Shown: positions 1,969-24,138 of the stretch, piece after piece | Layout: each line of letters opens with the position of its first letter | Numbering within the stretch: position 1 is the first letter of the stretch | Assembly: GCA_015062585.1 (NCBI GenBank) | Contig: SUUJ01000003.1 | Coordinates: 1 to 64,000, forward strand | DNA length: 64,000 bases | Direction: 5' to 3' | Source of the DNA: Alphaproteobacteria bacterium | GTDB lineage: Bacteria; Pseudomonadota; Alphaproteobacteria; RF32; CAG-239 | Translations under genes and position numbers: made by a program | Notes under the pieces: model-generated | Seen by the model: only the letters and a program-made list of their open reading frames with translations | Database searches by the model: none | Told to the model about the DNA's origin: nothing

Positions 1969-2043
1969 TCCGGCTTAGCTCAGCGGTAGAGCAATCGGCT
2001 GTTAACCGATTGGTCGCCTGTTCGAATCAGGCAGCCGGAGCCA
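1969..2043 (+). tRNA. tRNA-Asn (GTT)
   Basis: TCCGGCT...AGCCGGA acceptor stem, anticodon GTT in CGGCTGTTAACCG, T-loop TGTTCGAATCA, encoded CCA. Confidence 0.95.
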
Positions 2044-2515
2044 ATAAAAAAACCACCCTTTTGGGTGGTTTTTTTCATTAGTCCTTGCTTGCCTGCGAAC
2101 AGGCGGCCAACGGGAGCCTTGTTCGGAGTGGATAGTTGGTGAAAACAAACATTGAGCTTAGCAACTTGCTTAGCGAAATGTGCAGTTTGAACCTTACGAC
2201 ACGAGGAGGACCCGCTTGCGGGAGTACCCAATCAGGCAGCCGGAGCCAATAAAAAACCACCCAACAAGGTGGTTTTTTTATTGGTCCTTGCTTGCCTGCG
2301 AACAGGCGAAGCCTGTGAAGAATCAGCTCGAGGATAAAAACAACAATTGCTCTTGTTGTTTTTACCACAAGAGGCGTCGTTTTGTTATTTTTTTGAGCCG
2401 GTGTAAATCGGCGATAAAAACATTACAAAACAAGTGACCGACGCGCACTTGGCGAACAAAGTGAGCCTAGTAAGCTAGAAGCCGGAGCCAACCCAACAGG
2501 GTGGTTTTTTTTATT
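2025..2515. repeat. tRNA-Asn 3'-end plus terminator repeat cluster (three graded copies)
   Basis: AATCAGGCAGCCGGAGCCAATAAAAAA(A)CCACCC...GGTGGTTTTTTT...GTCCTTGCTTGCCTGCGAACAGGCG occurs at 2025-2107 and again at 2230-2310; degenerate third copy GCCGGAGCCAACCCAACAGGGTGGTTTTTTTTATTGGC at about 2481-2518. Confidence 0.9.
2044..2076 (+). terminator. Rho-independent terminator after tRNA-Asn
   Basis: AAAAAAACCACCCTTTTGGGTGGTTTTTTT. Confidence 0.85.
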
Positions 2516-2605
2516 GGCTTTTTGCTGTTTTCTATTCTCTCAATCCTTTTTTTCTGACATAAATCGCCACCTCAAACATTTTAGACAAATTTTTCAAAAA
2601 AACTG

Positions 2606-2634
2606 TTGACGGCATATCGAATCTGTAGTATATT
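2606..2634 (+). promoter_or_regulatory. Putative sigma70-type promoter of an unassigned transcript
   Basis: TTGACG, 17-nt spacer, TATATT; upstream context resembles the tRNA-Cys promoter. Confidence 0.55.
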
Positions 2635-2639
2635 CCTCA

Positions 2640-2993
2640 CATAAACAGATGAATTATTGTGTCGACTAAATGTAAAAGGCTCCAACGGCACACATAATTC
2701 AGCTGAAAATGAATTAAAAAAGCACTTAAAAAAAATAGGAGCCAGCTATTCAGCACAGTGTCGCGTTCATGCCATGCTTAATAGTAGGAGAAAATCCACA
2801 CCTAATTGTCTTCGAACGCCAAGGGAAGACGAAAAAAGAGATTAAAAATTTTGGCCTCTACACACAAAACGAGCCCAAAAAATATTTTTAGTCTGAAAGC
2901 AACAGATTATATGTAAATTACGTATAATCCGGACCACCTAAACAGGTGACTTTAAAAAGAACAACCCTATAAAAAGGTTTGTTCTTTTTTTTA
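2640..2993 (+). ncRNA. Candidate unassigned stable RNA (or very short coding transcript)
   Basis: Lies between a good promoter and a terminator; hairpins GGCTCC...GGAGCC, GTCTTC...GAAGAC and GATTATA...TATAATC. A 62-codon frame 2657-2845 also crosses it. Class not recognised. Confidence 0.4.
2954..2993 (+). terminator. Rho-independent terminator
   Basis: AAAAAGAACAACCCTATAAAAAGGTTTGTTCTTTTTTTT. Confidence 0.75.
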
Positions 2994-3035
2994 TTTAAAT
3001 AATGATAAAAAAACAGGTGCCATATTACAAAATAT

Positions 3036-3325
3036 GACACCTTTTCTTGCAAATTGCCCAATTTAAACTTTTTAAGCAATCAATTTGACAGGTAGGCGTG
3101 CTATTGTCAAAGTTTGAAAATGATGTGTACAAAGAATAGTACATGAGTTTTCAAATTTTGTGATATGACACCTTTTCTTGCAAATTGCCCAATTTAAACT
3201 TTTTAAGCAATCAATTTGATAGGTAGGCGTGCTATTGTCAAAGTTTGAAAATGATGTGTACAAAGAATAGTACATGAGTTTTCAAATTTTGCGATATGAC
3301 GCCTACCTTGCAAATTGCCATCTAG
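3036..3325. repeat. 131-bp tandem repeat (2 copies plus partial third) downstream of rpoC
   Basis: ATATGACACCTTTTCTTGCAAATTGCCCAATTTAAACTTTTTAAGCAATCAATTTGAYAGGTAGGCGTGCTATTGTCAAAGTTTGAAAATGATGTGTACAAAGAATAGTACATGAGTTTTCAAATTTTG repeated; anchors at 3041, 3172 and 3303. Confidence 0.95.
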
Positions 3326-20869: not shown

Positions 20870-21086
20870 TCCTACCTTTTATCTCCTATTTCTTAAATCC
20901 GAAGTCCTCCAACCAACCGGAAATTCCAAAAGTCCTACTTCCATAACCAACCCAAGGATTATCTGTTACATCTCAGCCTTTGCATTGTTTTGCTCATCTT
21001 TACGCATTACTGACTACCTTTAATAATCTTGCTTATCAATTATTAAAACATAGATTATTCATAAATTCAATTTATTTTACCCATTT

Positions 21087-21400
21087 AACCTTTTACATAG
21101 CCATGTCAAAAGTCAAACCTATGCAAAAATTTACATAGGTTCTTTTTCTGCTCAAAAAAGGCTGAAATTTGCTAAGTTATTGAAAAAATAAAAAGCAAGT
21201 TCGAAGATGTTGTAAAATAGGTGGCTGGATTAGGTACTCTCGCTCAAAATTTCGCGGGTCCTCCTCGCGTCGTAGGGCTCGCACGGCTTAAAATTGTGCT
21301 CACCAACTATCCGCTCCGAACCAAGTTGATTCGCCTTAAAACCACTCTCAATCCAACAAAAAAATCCTCCATGAAAGGAGGATTTTTTTGTTGGCTGGAG
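21087..21400. repeat. About 310-bp composite repeat carrying a tRNA-Gln 3'-end fragment (left copy)
   Basis: Aligns along its length with 23758-24070; contains GTTCGAAGATGTTGTAAAATAGGTGGCTGGATT then GGTACTCTCGC...GCGGGTCCTCCTCGCGTCG...CCAACTATCCGCTCCGAACC, ending in CCAACAAAAAAATCCTCC...GGAGGATTTTTTTGTTGG. Confidence 0.93.
21354..21395. terminator. 18-bp perfect-stem hairpin with A/T tracts (bidirectional terminator-like)
   Basis: CCAACAAAAAAATCCTCC-ATGAAA-GGAGGATTTTTTTGTTGG. Confidence 0.85.
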
Positions 21401-21548: not shown

Positions 21549-23447
21549 ATGGCAAAACAGGAAGCAAAAACAGATTTATGGGTGTATGATTTATTAAAAG
21601 AAGCTGGTATTTGTCTTGACCCACAAGGATGTTCAATTAAAGAAGTTGATGAAGCACTAAAAACTGCTTCTAAAAAAGGTACTGGTAATGTTGGTTATCC
21701 TGAATATGTCGGTGCTGTCAAAGATTTTTTGCTTGTTATAGAAGATAAATCTGATTTATCAAAACATGTAAAGTATAACGAAAAAGAGTTAATATGTACT
21801 GAAACAAAGTCTGTAACAGATTATGCAGTCAATGGGGCTTATTTCTATGGTAAGCACCTTATAAATAATACTCACTACAAAAAGATTATTGCCTTTGGTG
21901 TATCTGGTAATGAAAAACATCATAAAATAACACCTCTCTTTATAAATGAACGTGAATATTGCAAAGTAATGCCTGATGTTGAATCTTTCTATATCTTCAA
22001 TGAAGAAAACATAGATGAATATTACACTAGAGAAGTTTTAGGCGAAAATACCGATTTACAGAAAGAAACTACTGAAATTCTTAAGTTTGCAAAGAATCTA
22101 CATGAAGATTTACGCAATTATGGAAACTTGCAAGATACTCAAAAACCTCTTGTTGTATCTGGTATATTACTTGCTCTTAGAGAGATTGAGAAAGGCTCTT
22201 TTAATCTTGAGCAATTAAACGGTGATGATGTAGATACAGACGGTAACAAGATTTATGCAGCTATTGATAAAAATCTTCAACGCTCAAAAGTATCACCAAC
22301 AGTCAAGAAAGATAAACTATTAACACAATTTGCAGTCATAAGAGATACTAAAATCCTTAATGAAAAGAACGAAACATTAGGAAAAACACCTCTTAAATAC
22401 TATGCAGAACAAATTTATGATAATATCTACAAAACTATAAAATACACAAAAACAGCAGAAGATTATTTAGGCCGATTCTACGGTGAATTTATGAGTTATT
22501 CTGGTGGTGATGGACAAACGTTAGGTATTATTCTTACTCCAAAACATATTACTCAACTGTTTTGTGATTTGGTAGATTTAAAACCTGATGATGTCGTGCT
22601 TGACCCTTGTTGTGGTACAGCTGGATTCCTTATTGCAGCAATGCATAATATGTTGAAGAAAGCTAAAGATGATAATCAGAGGGAAAATATTCGTAAAAAC
22701 CAACTTCATGGTATTGAACTTCAACCATATATGTTTACTATTGCTACATCAAATATGATTATTCGTGGTGATGGTAAGAGTAACCTTGTAGATGAAGATT
22801 TCTTAAGGTGTAAAGATTCAGAATTACAATTAAAAGGTGCAACTGTCGGTATGATGAATCCACCATATAGTCAAGGTTCAAAAGCTAACCCCTCACTTTA
22901 TGAAATAAGTTTTGTTGAACACTTGTTAGATTCATTGGCCGAAGATGGTAAAGCGATTGTAATTATTCCTCAATCTTCTTTAACTGGTAAGACAAAAGAT
23001 GAGCAAAACTATAAGGAAAGCATATTAAAACATCATACCTTAGAAGGCGTTATAACTTTAAGTGAAAATACATTTTTTGGAGTAGGTGTGCATACTTGTA
23101 TTGCAATTTTTACTGCACATAAACCTCATCCCGTTAACAAAGAGTGTAAATTTATAAATTTCAAAAACGATGGTTTCAAAGTCGCTCCGCACGTTGGATT
23201 GATAGAGACAGAATATGCTAAAGACAAGAAACAACATCTACTTGACGTGTGGTTTGATAGAATTAATGCCCCAATTGATTTTATAGTTAAATCTACAATT
23301 AAACCAGATGATGAATGGCTTCACTCTTTTTATTATTTTAATGATGAAATTCCTGATGAAAATTACTTTGAACAAGCAATAACAGATTACTTAACATTTG
23401 AATTTGAAAAAGTTATCATCAGCCGAAAATTGAATAAAGTCTTTTAA
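21549..23447 (+). CDS. Type I/IIG-like restriction-modification protein: nuclease-like (HsdR_N-like) N-terminus plus N6-adenine DNA methylase; C-terminus probably truncated
   Basis: N-terminus ...DFLLVIEDKSDL (possible PD-(D/E)xK); DVVLDPCCGTAGFLIAAMHNMLKKA and MNPPYSQG (N6-MTase motifs I and IV). No specificity domain in the ORF. Confidence 0.88.
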   Translation: MAKQEAKTDLWVYDLLKEAGICLDPQGCSIKEVDEALKTASKKGTGNVGYPEYVGAVKDFLLVIEDKSDLSKHVKYNEKELICTETKSVTDYAVNGAYFYGKHLINNTHYKKIIAFGVSGNEKHHKITPLFINEREYCKVMPDVESFYIFNEENIDEYYTREVLGENTDLQKETTEILKFAKNLHEDLRNYGNLQDTQKPLVVSGILLALREIEKGSFNLEQLNGDDVDTDGNKIYAAIDKNLQRSKVSPTVKKDKLLTQFAVIRDTKILNEKNETLGKTPLKYYAEQIYDNIYKTIKYTKTAEDYLGRFYGEFMSYSGGDGQTLGIILTPKHITQLFCDLVDLKPDDVVLDPCCGTAGFLIAAMHNMLKKAKDDNQRENIRKNQLHGIELQPYMFTIATSNMIIRGDGKSNLVDEDFLRCKDSELQLKGATVGMMNPPYSQGSKANPSLYEISFVEHLLDSLAEDGKAIVIIPQSSLTGKTKDEQNYKESILKHHTLEGVITLSENTFFGVGVHTCIAIFTAHKPHPVNKECKFINFKNDGFKVAPHVGLIETEYAKDKKQHLLDVWFDRINAPIDFIVKSTIKPDDEWLHSFYYFNDEIPDENYFEQAITDYLTFEFEKVIISRKLNKVF

Positions 23448-23687
23448 TGTTCCTTGCGGGATATACCAACGTTTTGAGTTGTTTTCGCCAATTTCTTCAA
23501 CAACTTGAGGAAATCGACTTAATATCATATCTCGCATGCGTTCGGCAGTTCTTCTTGATACTTGAAAGCGATTCATAATATCTGACAAACTAATTCCTCC
23601 GCGAGTTGATTGCATCCAAATCGCTAAATCTAACAAATCAAAAGTCTTTTCATATGCCATAATATTCATCCTATATAAAACATACAT
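23391..23687 (-). pseudogene. Truncated HTH (WYL-type) transcriptional regulator, N-terminal fragment
   Basis: MAYEKTFDLLDLAIWMQSTRGGISLSDIMNRFQVSRRTAERMRDMILSRFPQVVEEIGENNSKRWYIPQGTL...; typical N-terminus of WYL regulators, which are normally about 300 aa. Last codons are antisense to the methylase gene. Confidence 0.65.
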
Positions 23688-23757
23688 TTAGGTTACGACA
23701 TATTTTGACATAGTAAATAATGCAAATGTTTTTATTAACAATAATGTATTGCTAAAT

Positions 23758-24070
23758 AACCTTTCACATAGCTATGTCAGAAGTTCAACCTTTGCGAATT
23801 TTTGCAGAGGTTCATTTATATACTAAAAAAAGGCTGAAATTGGTTAAATTATTGAAAAATATAAAAAGCAAGTTCGAAGATGTTGTAAAATAGGTGGCTG
23901 GATTGGGTACTCCCGCTCAAAAATTCGCGGGTCCTCCTCGCGTCGTTAAGGTTCGCACGGCTTAAAATTGTGCTCACCAACTATCCGCTCCGAACCGAAT
24001 TGATTCGCCTCAAAACAACACTATCCAACAAAAAAATCCTCCATAAAAGGAGGACTTTTTTGTTGGCTGG
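23758..24070. repeat. About 310-bp composite repeat (right copy), abutting tRNA-Gln
   Basis: GGTGGCTGGATT at 23893-23904 duplicates the tRNA-Gln 3' region at 24071-24082; shared core with 21087-21400. Confidence 0.93.
24023..24066. terminator. Terminator-like hairpin downstream of tRNA-Gln
   Basis: CCAACAAAAAAATCCTCCATAAAAGGAGGACTTTTTTGTTGG. Confidence 0.8.
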
Positions 24071-24138
24071 GGTGGCTGGATTCGAACCAACGAATGACGA
24101 TACCAAAAACCGTTGCCTTACCACTTGGCGACACCCCA
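24064..24138 (-). tRNA. tRNA-Gln (TTG)
   Basis: Reverse complement TGGGGTGTCGCCAAGTGGTAAGGCAACGGTTTTTGGTATCGTCATTCGTTGGTTCGAATCCAGCCACCCCAGCCA. Confidence 0.94.

Follow-up and report, generated by a model that had tools for sequence, protein, structure and literature searches.

The 3' end of a tRNA gene and its terminator are repeated directly behind the intact gene in an uncultured gut Alphaproteobacterium, which raises the question of what such repeats are and how they are gained and kept. The stretch of DNA analysed (the window) comprises 64,000 nt of contig SUUJ01000003.1 (GCA_015062585.1), and positions given below are window coordinates. An initial annotation of this locus had described the duplicated tail and terminator, together with a decayed third copy, as a footprint.

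The array behind tRNA-Asn

The gene for tRNA-Asn(gtt) (1969-2043, forward strand; ARAGORN and Rfam) is an intact resident gene with tRNA-Cys directly upstream, and its last 19 nt (2025-2043) constitute the tail, X. All parts of the array lie downstream on the same strand. Terminator hairpin 1 (2045-2075), a perfect 13-bp stem with a T-run and a fold z of -4.0, is followed by X' (2080-2113, with its clear part at 2090-2113), where the tail, T-arm and variable region of the tRNA recur in inverted and degenerate form, as detected by local alignment to the tRNA reverse complement and as inverted repeat I11. The T-arm 5' strand recurs in forward orientation (GCCTTGTTC, 2116-2124), at the position where it was read in all core A copies, and precedes a structured insert, core A (2125-2229), which shows covariation and lies within a covariance model match at 2116-2239 (E 1.7e-33, a value that is not independent, the model having included the window's own copy). 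Sequence identity and alignment place a second, 19-nt X at 2230-2248. It is succeeded by terminator hairpin 2 (2246-2285, fold z -4.2), in which pairing extends into CCA-AT/ATTGG, a second X' (2286-2310, aligned to the tRNA reverse complement), a T-arm-like sequence (GCCTGTGAAGAATCAGC, 2311-2327) read also in the B-type units of relatives, and core B (2328-2479). The region 2290-2492 folds with a z of -3.7, and the same core has been found at the Asn locus in relatives and at other tRNAs of the genome. The third X, found by identity and alignment, comprises just 11 nt (AGCCGGAGCCA, 2480-2490), as against 19/19 in unit 1, and is followed by a reduced terminator with flank (2491-2526), which by alignment has lost the 5' A-tract arm and resembles the terminator of a paralogous locus (L009). 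Two tandem units are thus present, unit 1 with core A and unit 2 with core B, each in the order X, terminator, X', T-arm 5' strand, structured core and X again, with cores of roughly 105-150 nt. A promoter and terminator scan called no promoters inside the units and, by its own rules, no terminators, though the hairpins fold strongly, and an Rfam scan of the window returned only tRNA above threshold.

Much of the initial description is borne out by alignment. The segment 2025-2105 (3' end, terminator and next 30 nt) aligns to 2230-2308 with a score of 64, the maximum for the same tail being 18.5 among 4000 windows drawn at random from the 64 kb, and the shortened tail at 2480-2526, the proposed third copy, exceeds that maximum with a score of 21.5. 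The likeness reaches beyond the hairpin, the 19 nt of 2025-2043 being identical to 2230-2248 and the trailing 36 nt 94% identical, and the 5' part of the tRNA is absent from the copy, which had rightly been described as something other than a second tRNA. The sequence after the terminator does recur as stated, but the "following GTCCTTGCTTGCCTGCGAACAGGCG" is not an unrelated flank; it is the tail and T-arm of the tRNA in degenerate, reverse-complemented form. In alignment and as inverted repeat I11, the trailing TGCCTGCGAACAGGCGGCC corresponds to a degenerate reverse complement of the T-arm and neighbours of tRNA-Asn, so that a fold-back begins with the tail and terminator. Selection on the hairpin had also been suggested; the difference between CCACCC/GGGTGG and CCACC/GGTGG amounts to one pair lost at the loop, with no compensatory change, and selection on pairing is therefore without support inside the window. 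Among relatives, many paired positions of the terminator stems differ while pairing is kept, as judged by eye and not by a formal count.

Taken together, the locus is probably a tandem array of the tRNA-linked repeat (TLR) type, the kind that includes RtT of E. coli, with two units behind tRNA-Asn that carry core A and core B and between whose tails X-to-X recombination or conversion would have occurred.

Further features have been observed in the surroundings. About 320 nt without a convincing gene are bracketed by a promoter-like site at 2606-2634 and, at 2954-2995, a strong hairpin carrying a T-run. Since this stretch (within 2600-3000) had no match in 37 relatives, it may be a small RNA that is young or confined to the lineage. 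At 3032-3293, beside the 3' end of rpoC, lie two direct repeats of 131 bp with 98% identity and a partial third. A paralogous rpiB - tRNA-Cys - tRNA-Asn block (L009) occurs on contig C14 of the same genome (G000), and this contig ends within the core A unit of that locus, which implies that such arrays break assemblies.

Units at other tRNAs and base pairing in core A

The pattern extends well beyond tRNA-Asn. When the last 28 nt of each of the 42 tRNA entries of this 1.5 Mb genome were compared with their own 450 nt downstream, alongside every other tRNA tail, the own 3' end was the best recurring tail at 17 entries and the inverted own tail matched best downstream at 10 of the 42, with about 1 expected by chance. 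Core A also stands behind the tRNAs Gln(ctg), Gln(ttg), Glu(ttc) and Thr(ggt), the last of which has two such copies, and each unit bears the tails and T-arm strand of its own tRNA. The units of Trp, Lys, Ser, Arg, Leu, Pro and Thr(tgt) have other cores. Cores are common to different tRNAs, and X and X' are tRNA-specific. Reading X' by eye, the T-loop complement TTCGAA was seen to be repeatedly exchanged for forms ending in AGAA (L010, L011, L015, L031, L147 and L174), such as GATGAGAACC in E. coli Tyr and, in this genome, Ser-gga, GCGAGAACC at Gln and TGAAGAACCC at Glu.

Some units stand away from any tRNA. On the reverse strand of the window, a Gln-type unit with core A lies with its shared flank at 23732-24063, behind tRNA-Gln(ttg) (24064-24138), and a second, free-standing Gln-type unit at 21055-21391 (core A at 21222-21326). 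The two share about 330 bp and stand 2.3 kb apart, separated by the gene for an N6-adenine DNA methylase (21549-23447) and by a small ORF at 23391-23687, so that the free-standing unit lies across the methylase gene from tRNA-Gln. An integron-like cassette is a conceivable reading of the Gln units. In RGIG5458 (L085), three Gln-type core A units with no tRNA within the 8 kb adjoin the gene of an AAA_13 ATPase and an ORF resembling, by eye, a large serine recombinase.

Core A has been shown to be under base-pairing constraint. In 24 distinct copies, the hand-read structure comprises 93% standard pairs, with 88 cells changed on both sides, and the covariation score of 0.36 compares with 0.145 for shuffled alignments and was reached by none of 500 shuffles. 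Sliding the pairing partners by 1-3 columns abolishes the covariation, a control biased towards the structure since this was drawn from the same sequences as were tested. Variation in the outer T-arm pairs follows from that of the tRNAs; the inner helices covary too, columns 14/88, for example, changing from C-G to U-A. When the single copy in the window was folded by energy, the result was unremarkable (z -1.3).

These findings bear on whether the tails are att footprints, left by integrative elements that targeted tRNA 3' ends and have since been deleted. Such elements typically duplicate the tail at the 3' end of a tRNA gene, and the methylase gene between the two Gln-type units of the window, like the AAA_13 gene beside those of RGIG5458, could be taken to speak for them. 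Nonetheless, an origin as integration scars is very unlikely. Between the Asn tails there is no integrase, other recombinase or element body, only a structured non-coding core, and the two Phage_integrase matches in the genome are both on contigs other than the window's. The same short core recurs with matched tails at several different tRNAs, and its conserved structure, the inverted tail and the regularly spaced tandem runs of two or three units likewise speak against such scars. The shared, covarying core already largely contradicts the footprint proposed initially, and E. coli TLRs display the same architecture as the units.

Variation among relatives and inserts at other hairpins

Comparison of the syntenic Cys-Asn locus in about 50 relatives, which had been suggested at the outset, showed that unit number varies between 0 and at least 3 and that the cores differ. 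Core A and core B occur in reversed order in G038 as compared with this genome, and closely similar loci carry a stub only (L099), one unit (L102) or one and a truncated second (L094). The last copies in arrays are often truncated. This variation and the truncated ends would suit a simple duplication in tandem of the tRNA 3' region with later decay, an account which is nevertheless extremely improbable: direct duplication does not yield an inverted tail, and the account is already contradicted by the shared, covarying core, which lies between the tails, is common to other tRNAs and genera and is constrained in its pairing.

The strong tail copies follow the host. The sequence of tRNA-Asn differs between genera, with nine 28-mer variants, and strong direct tail copies (score of at least 17) best match the own species' variant at 9 of 9 loci, spanning five variants. 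This matching by species points to the resident tRNA as the putative source of conversion or of repeated templating. In a TLR-type array, exchange between unit tails and the tail of the tRNA, by recombination or conversion, would add, remove and reorder units, and such X-to-X exchange would keep the tails matched while leaving the tRNA intact. The origin and upkeep of the units thus become testable through strains with 0, 1 and 2 units. Self-primed reverse transcription from the terminator might produce the inverted tail, a proposal kept as no more than speculation, because no reverse transcriptase (PF00078) was found in this genome, G038 and G047 possessing one. With PF00078 absent from this genome, a retroelement or retron was rejected as a candidate.

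A pattern scan for core A in one genome per species (84,980 species) gave matches in uncultured gut and rumen Alphaproteobacteria, flanked by X' and X of the tRNA type (Thr, Gln, Glu, Ser and Asn). A few matches in Streptomyces and other unrelated high-G+C genomes were without such flanks and were dismissed as chance. With the covariance model, 385 genomes sampled from the class yielded core A-like matches in 8, the weakest (L175) being probably due to chance, and those in other alphaproteobacterial families lie behind tRNA-Leu (L172 in G200 and L174 in G337) and tRNA-Arg (L173 in G400). Core A was not found in viral contigs with a pattern that required a loop of at least 3 nt and would miss the window's short-loop form.

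Copies on the 5' side of tRNAs mirror the units described above. The first 36 nt of tRNA-Pro(tgg) (L013) and tRNA-Ser(tga) (L017) are repeated upstream with zero mismatches (score 36, null maxima 12 and 14), and both copies stop at the anticodon loop, where a core-like insert begins. At tRNA-Thr(ggt) (L014) a shorter copy stops near the D-arm, again before a core-like insert. At all three loci the leader and the 5' half of the tRNA are duplicated upstream, as a mirror image of the 3' units. In one relative (G096), core A has been found in the loop of dispersed REP-like palindromes, for instance GTCATTGCCGGACTTGA/TCCGGCAATCC (L179, L181, L183, L185, L187 and L189). The filled palindromes have three different stem sequences, empty palindromes with the same stems lie nearby, and three of the core A copies hold a further 70 nt nested inside the core. 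The 5'-side copies, these palindromes and the free-standing Gln-type units suggest that the cores may be separable inserts capping hairpins.

It is possible, if less likely than a TLR-type array, that the cores are small selfish inserts in hairpin loops (the T-loop, the anticodon loop and the tips of dispersed palindromes), forming RNAs with no host role, and that tail copies persist because a tRNA arm can bear such an insert only beside an intact tRNA. Such inserts would explain the filled and empty palindromes on three stems in G096, the onset of the insert at the anticodon loop of the Pro and Ser copies and the presence of common cores at several tRNAs; on the other hand, the filled palindromes could have spread as composites, the inverted tail is poorly explained, and no enzyme has been found, with reverse transcriptase lacking in this genome and the Y1 transposase (PF01797), the REP/RAYT driver, in all of five genomes. 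REP elements driven by RAYT were rejected on the latter ground. A rather doubtful proposal is that cores are small structured elements inserting into hairpin loops (T-loop, anticodon loop, palindromes), with TLRs, including those of E. coli, as remnants where the copied tRNA tail makes insertion into a tRNA arm harmless; if cores do settle in hairpin loops, they would represent a new kind of small mobile element.

Comparison with the tRNA-linked repeats of E. coli

The TLRs of E. coli K-12 have been known since 1978 (Egan and Landy 1978; Rudd 1999, as described in PMC8144298). They lie behind tRNA genes in tandem, with 1-5 per locus and 22 copies at ten loci, and are defined by a perfect match of 18-19 bp between their own 3' end and that of the upstream gene, together with which they are transcribed and then processed. 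An early claimed function was retracted, and no function was known for TLRs before the same authors' work on the 5S-linked ones (PMC8144298). The array behind tRNA-Asn agrees with this type in its position immediately behind a tRNA gene, in its tail (19/19 nt in unit 1; only 11 nt in unit 2) and in its copy number, with two tandem units here and 17/42 tRNA entries genome-wide. Reading of the 178-bp repeats of E. coli tyrT/tyrV revealed X, a linker, X' (86% complementary), the T-arm strand, a core and X, and among seven further loci the architecture was seen at lysV and argQZYV and not at leuQPV, proM, thrT, serT and leuZ. In the E. coli repeats read here, an inverted tail is followed by the T-arm strand and a GC-rich core, an order that agrees with the window units, and lysV repeats the terminator too. 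This common order of parts at tyrT/V, lysV and argQZYV argues for a TLR-type array and against an integration footprint.

The RtT RNA model (Rfam RF00391) spans exactly X' to X of one tyrT/tyrV unit, and a tandem GA motif is reported for RtT (PMC7657543), to be compared with the GA/GA internal loop read in core A. The model, which scores the E. coli loci at 133-138 bits as a positive control, had no match in this genome at E up to 10, and the core A model had none at the E. coli TLR loci; membership of the RtT family by sequence was consequently rejected. Given that neither model finds the other's sequences, the likeness to the E. coli repeats is one of architecture, and common descent is without support. 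For the "core D" units (A2), the MAFFT alignment was too loose for model building or an RtT homology test.

A second parallel is offered by RrA, RrB and RrF, located behind 5S in E. coli rrn operons, where a gene tail is likewise repeated between two terminators. These belong to the rRNA operon and the window array to a tRNA, and CsrA and Hfq binding is an aspect of RrA, RrB and RrF. Their RNA arises by read-through and ends just past the repeated tail, the 3' end of RrB mapping 3 nt beyond it, which the authors ascribe to RNase E (PMC8144298). By analogy with this 5S-linked case, leakage past terminator 1 would give an RNA, which may be cut at the copied tail as the element that 3' processing would recognise, and the repeated terminators would end transcription. 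No 5S gene was found in six assemblies.

Judged by its architecture as read in the DNA, the array is a TLR, with other core families and wider use. As against the 22 copies at ten loci in E. coli, a single genome of 1.5 Mb has units at about 17 of its 42 tRNA genes, along with several unrelated core families, free-standing copies and 5'-side copies, the last absent from the described TLR type. What is new here is the abundance, the core families, the mirrored 5'-side copies and the presence of core A in palindrome loops of a relative. The same architecture recurs in Alphaproteobacteria with unrelated cores and tRNA-matched tails, which indicates that the conserved part of these repeats is their architecture and not their sequence.
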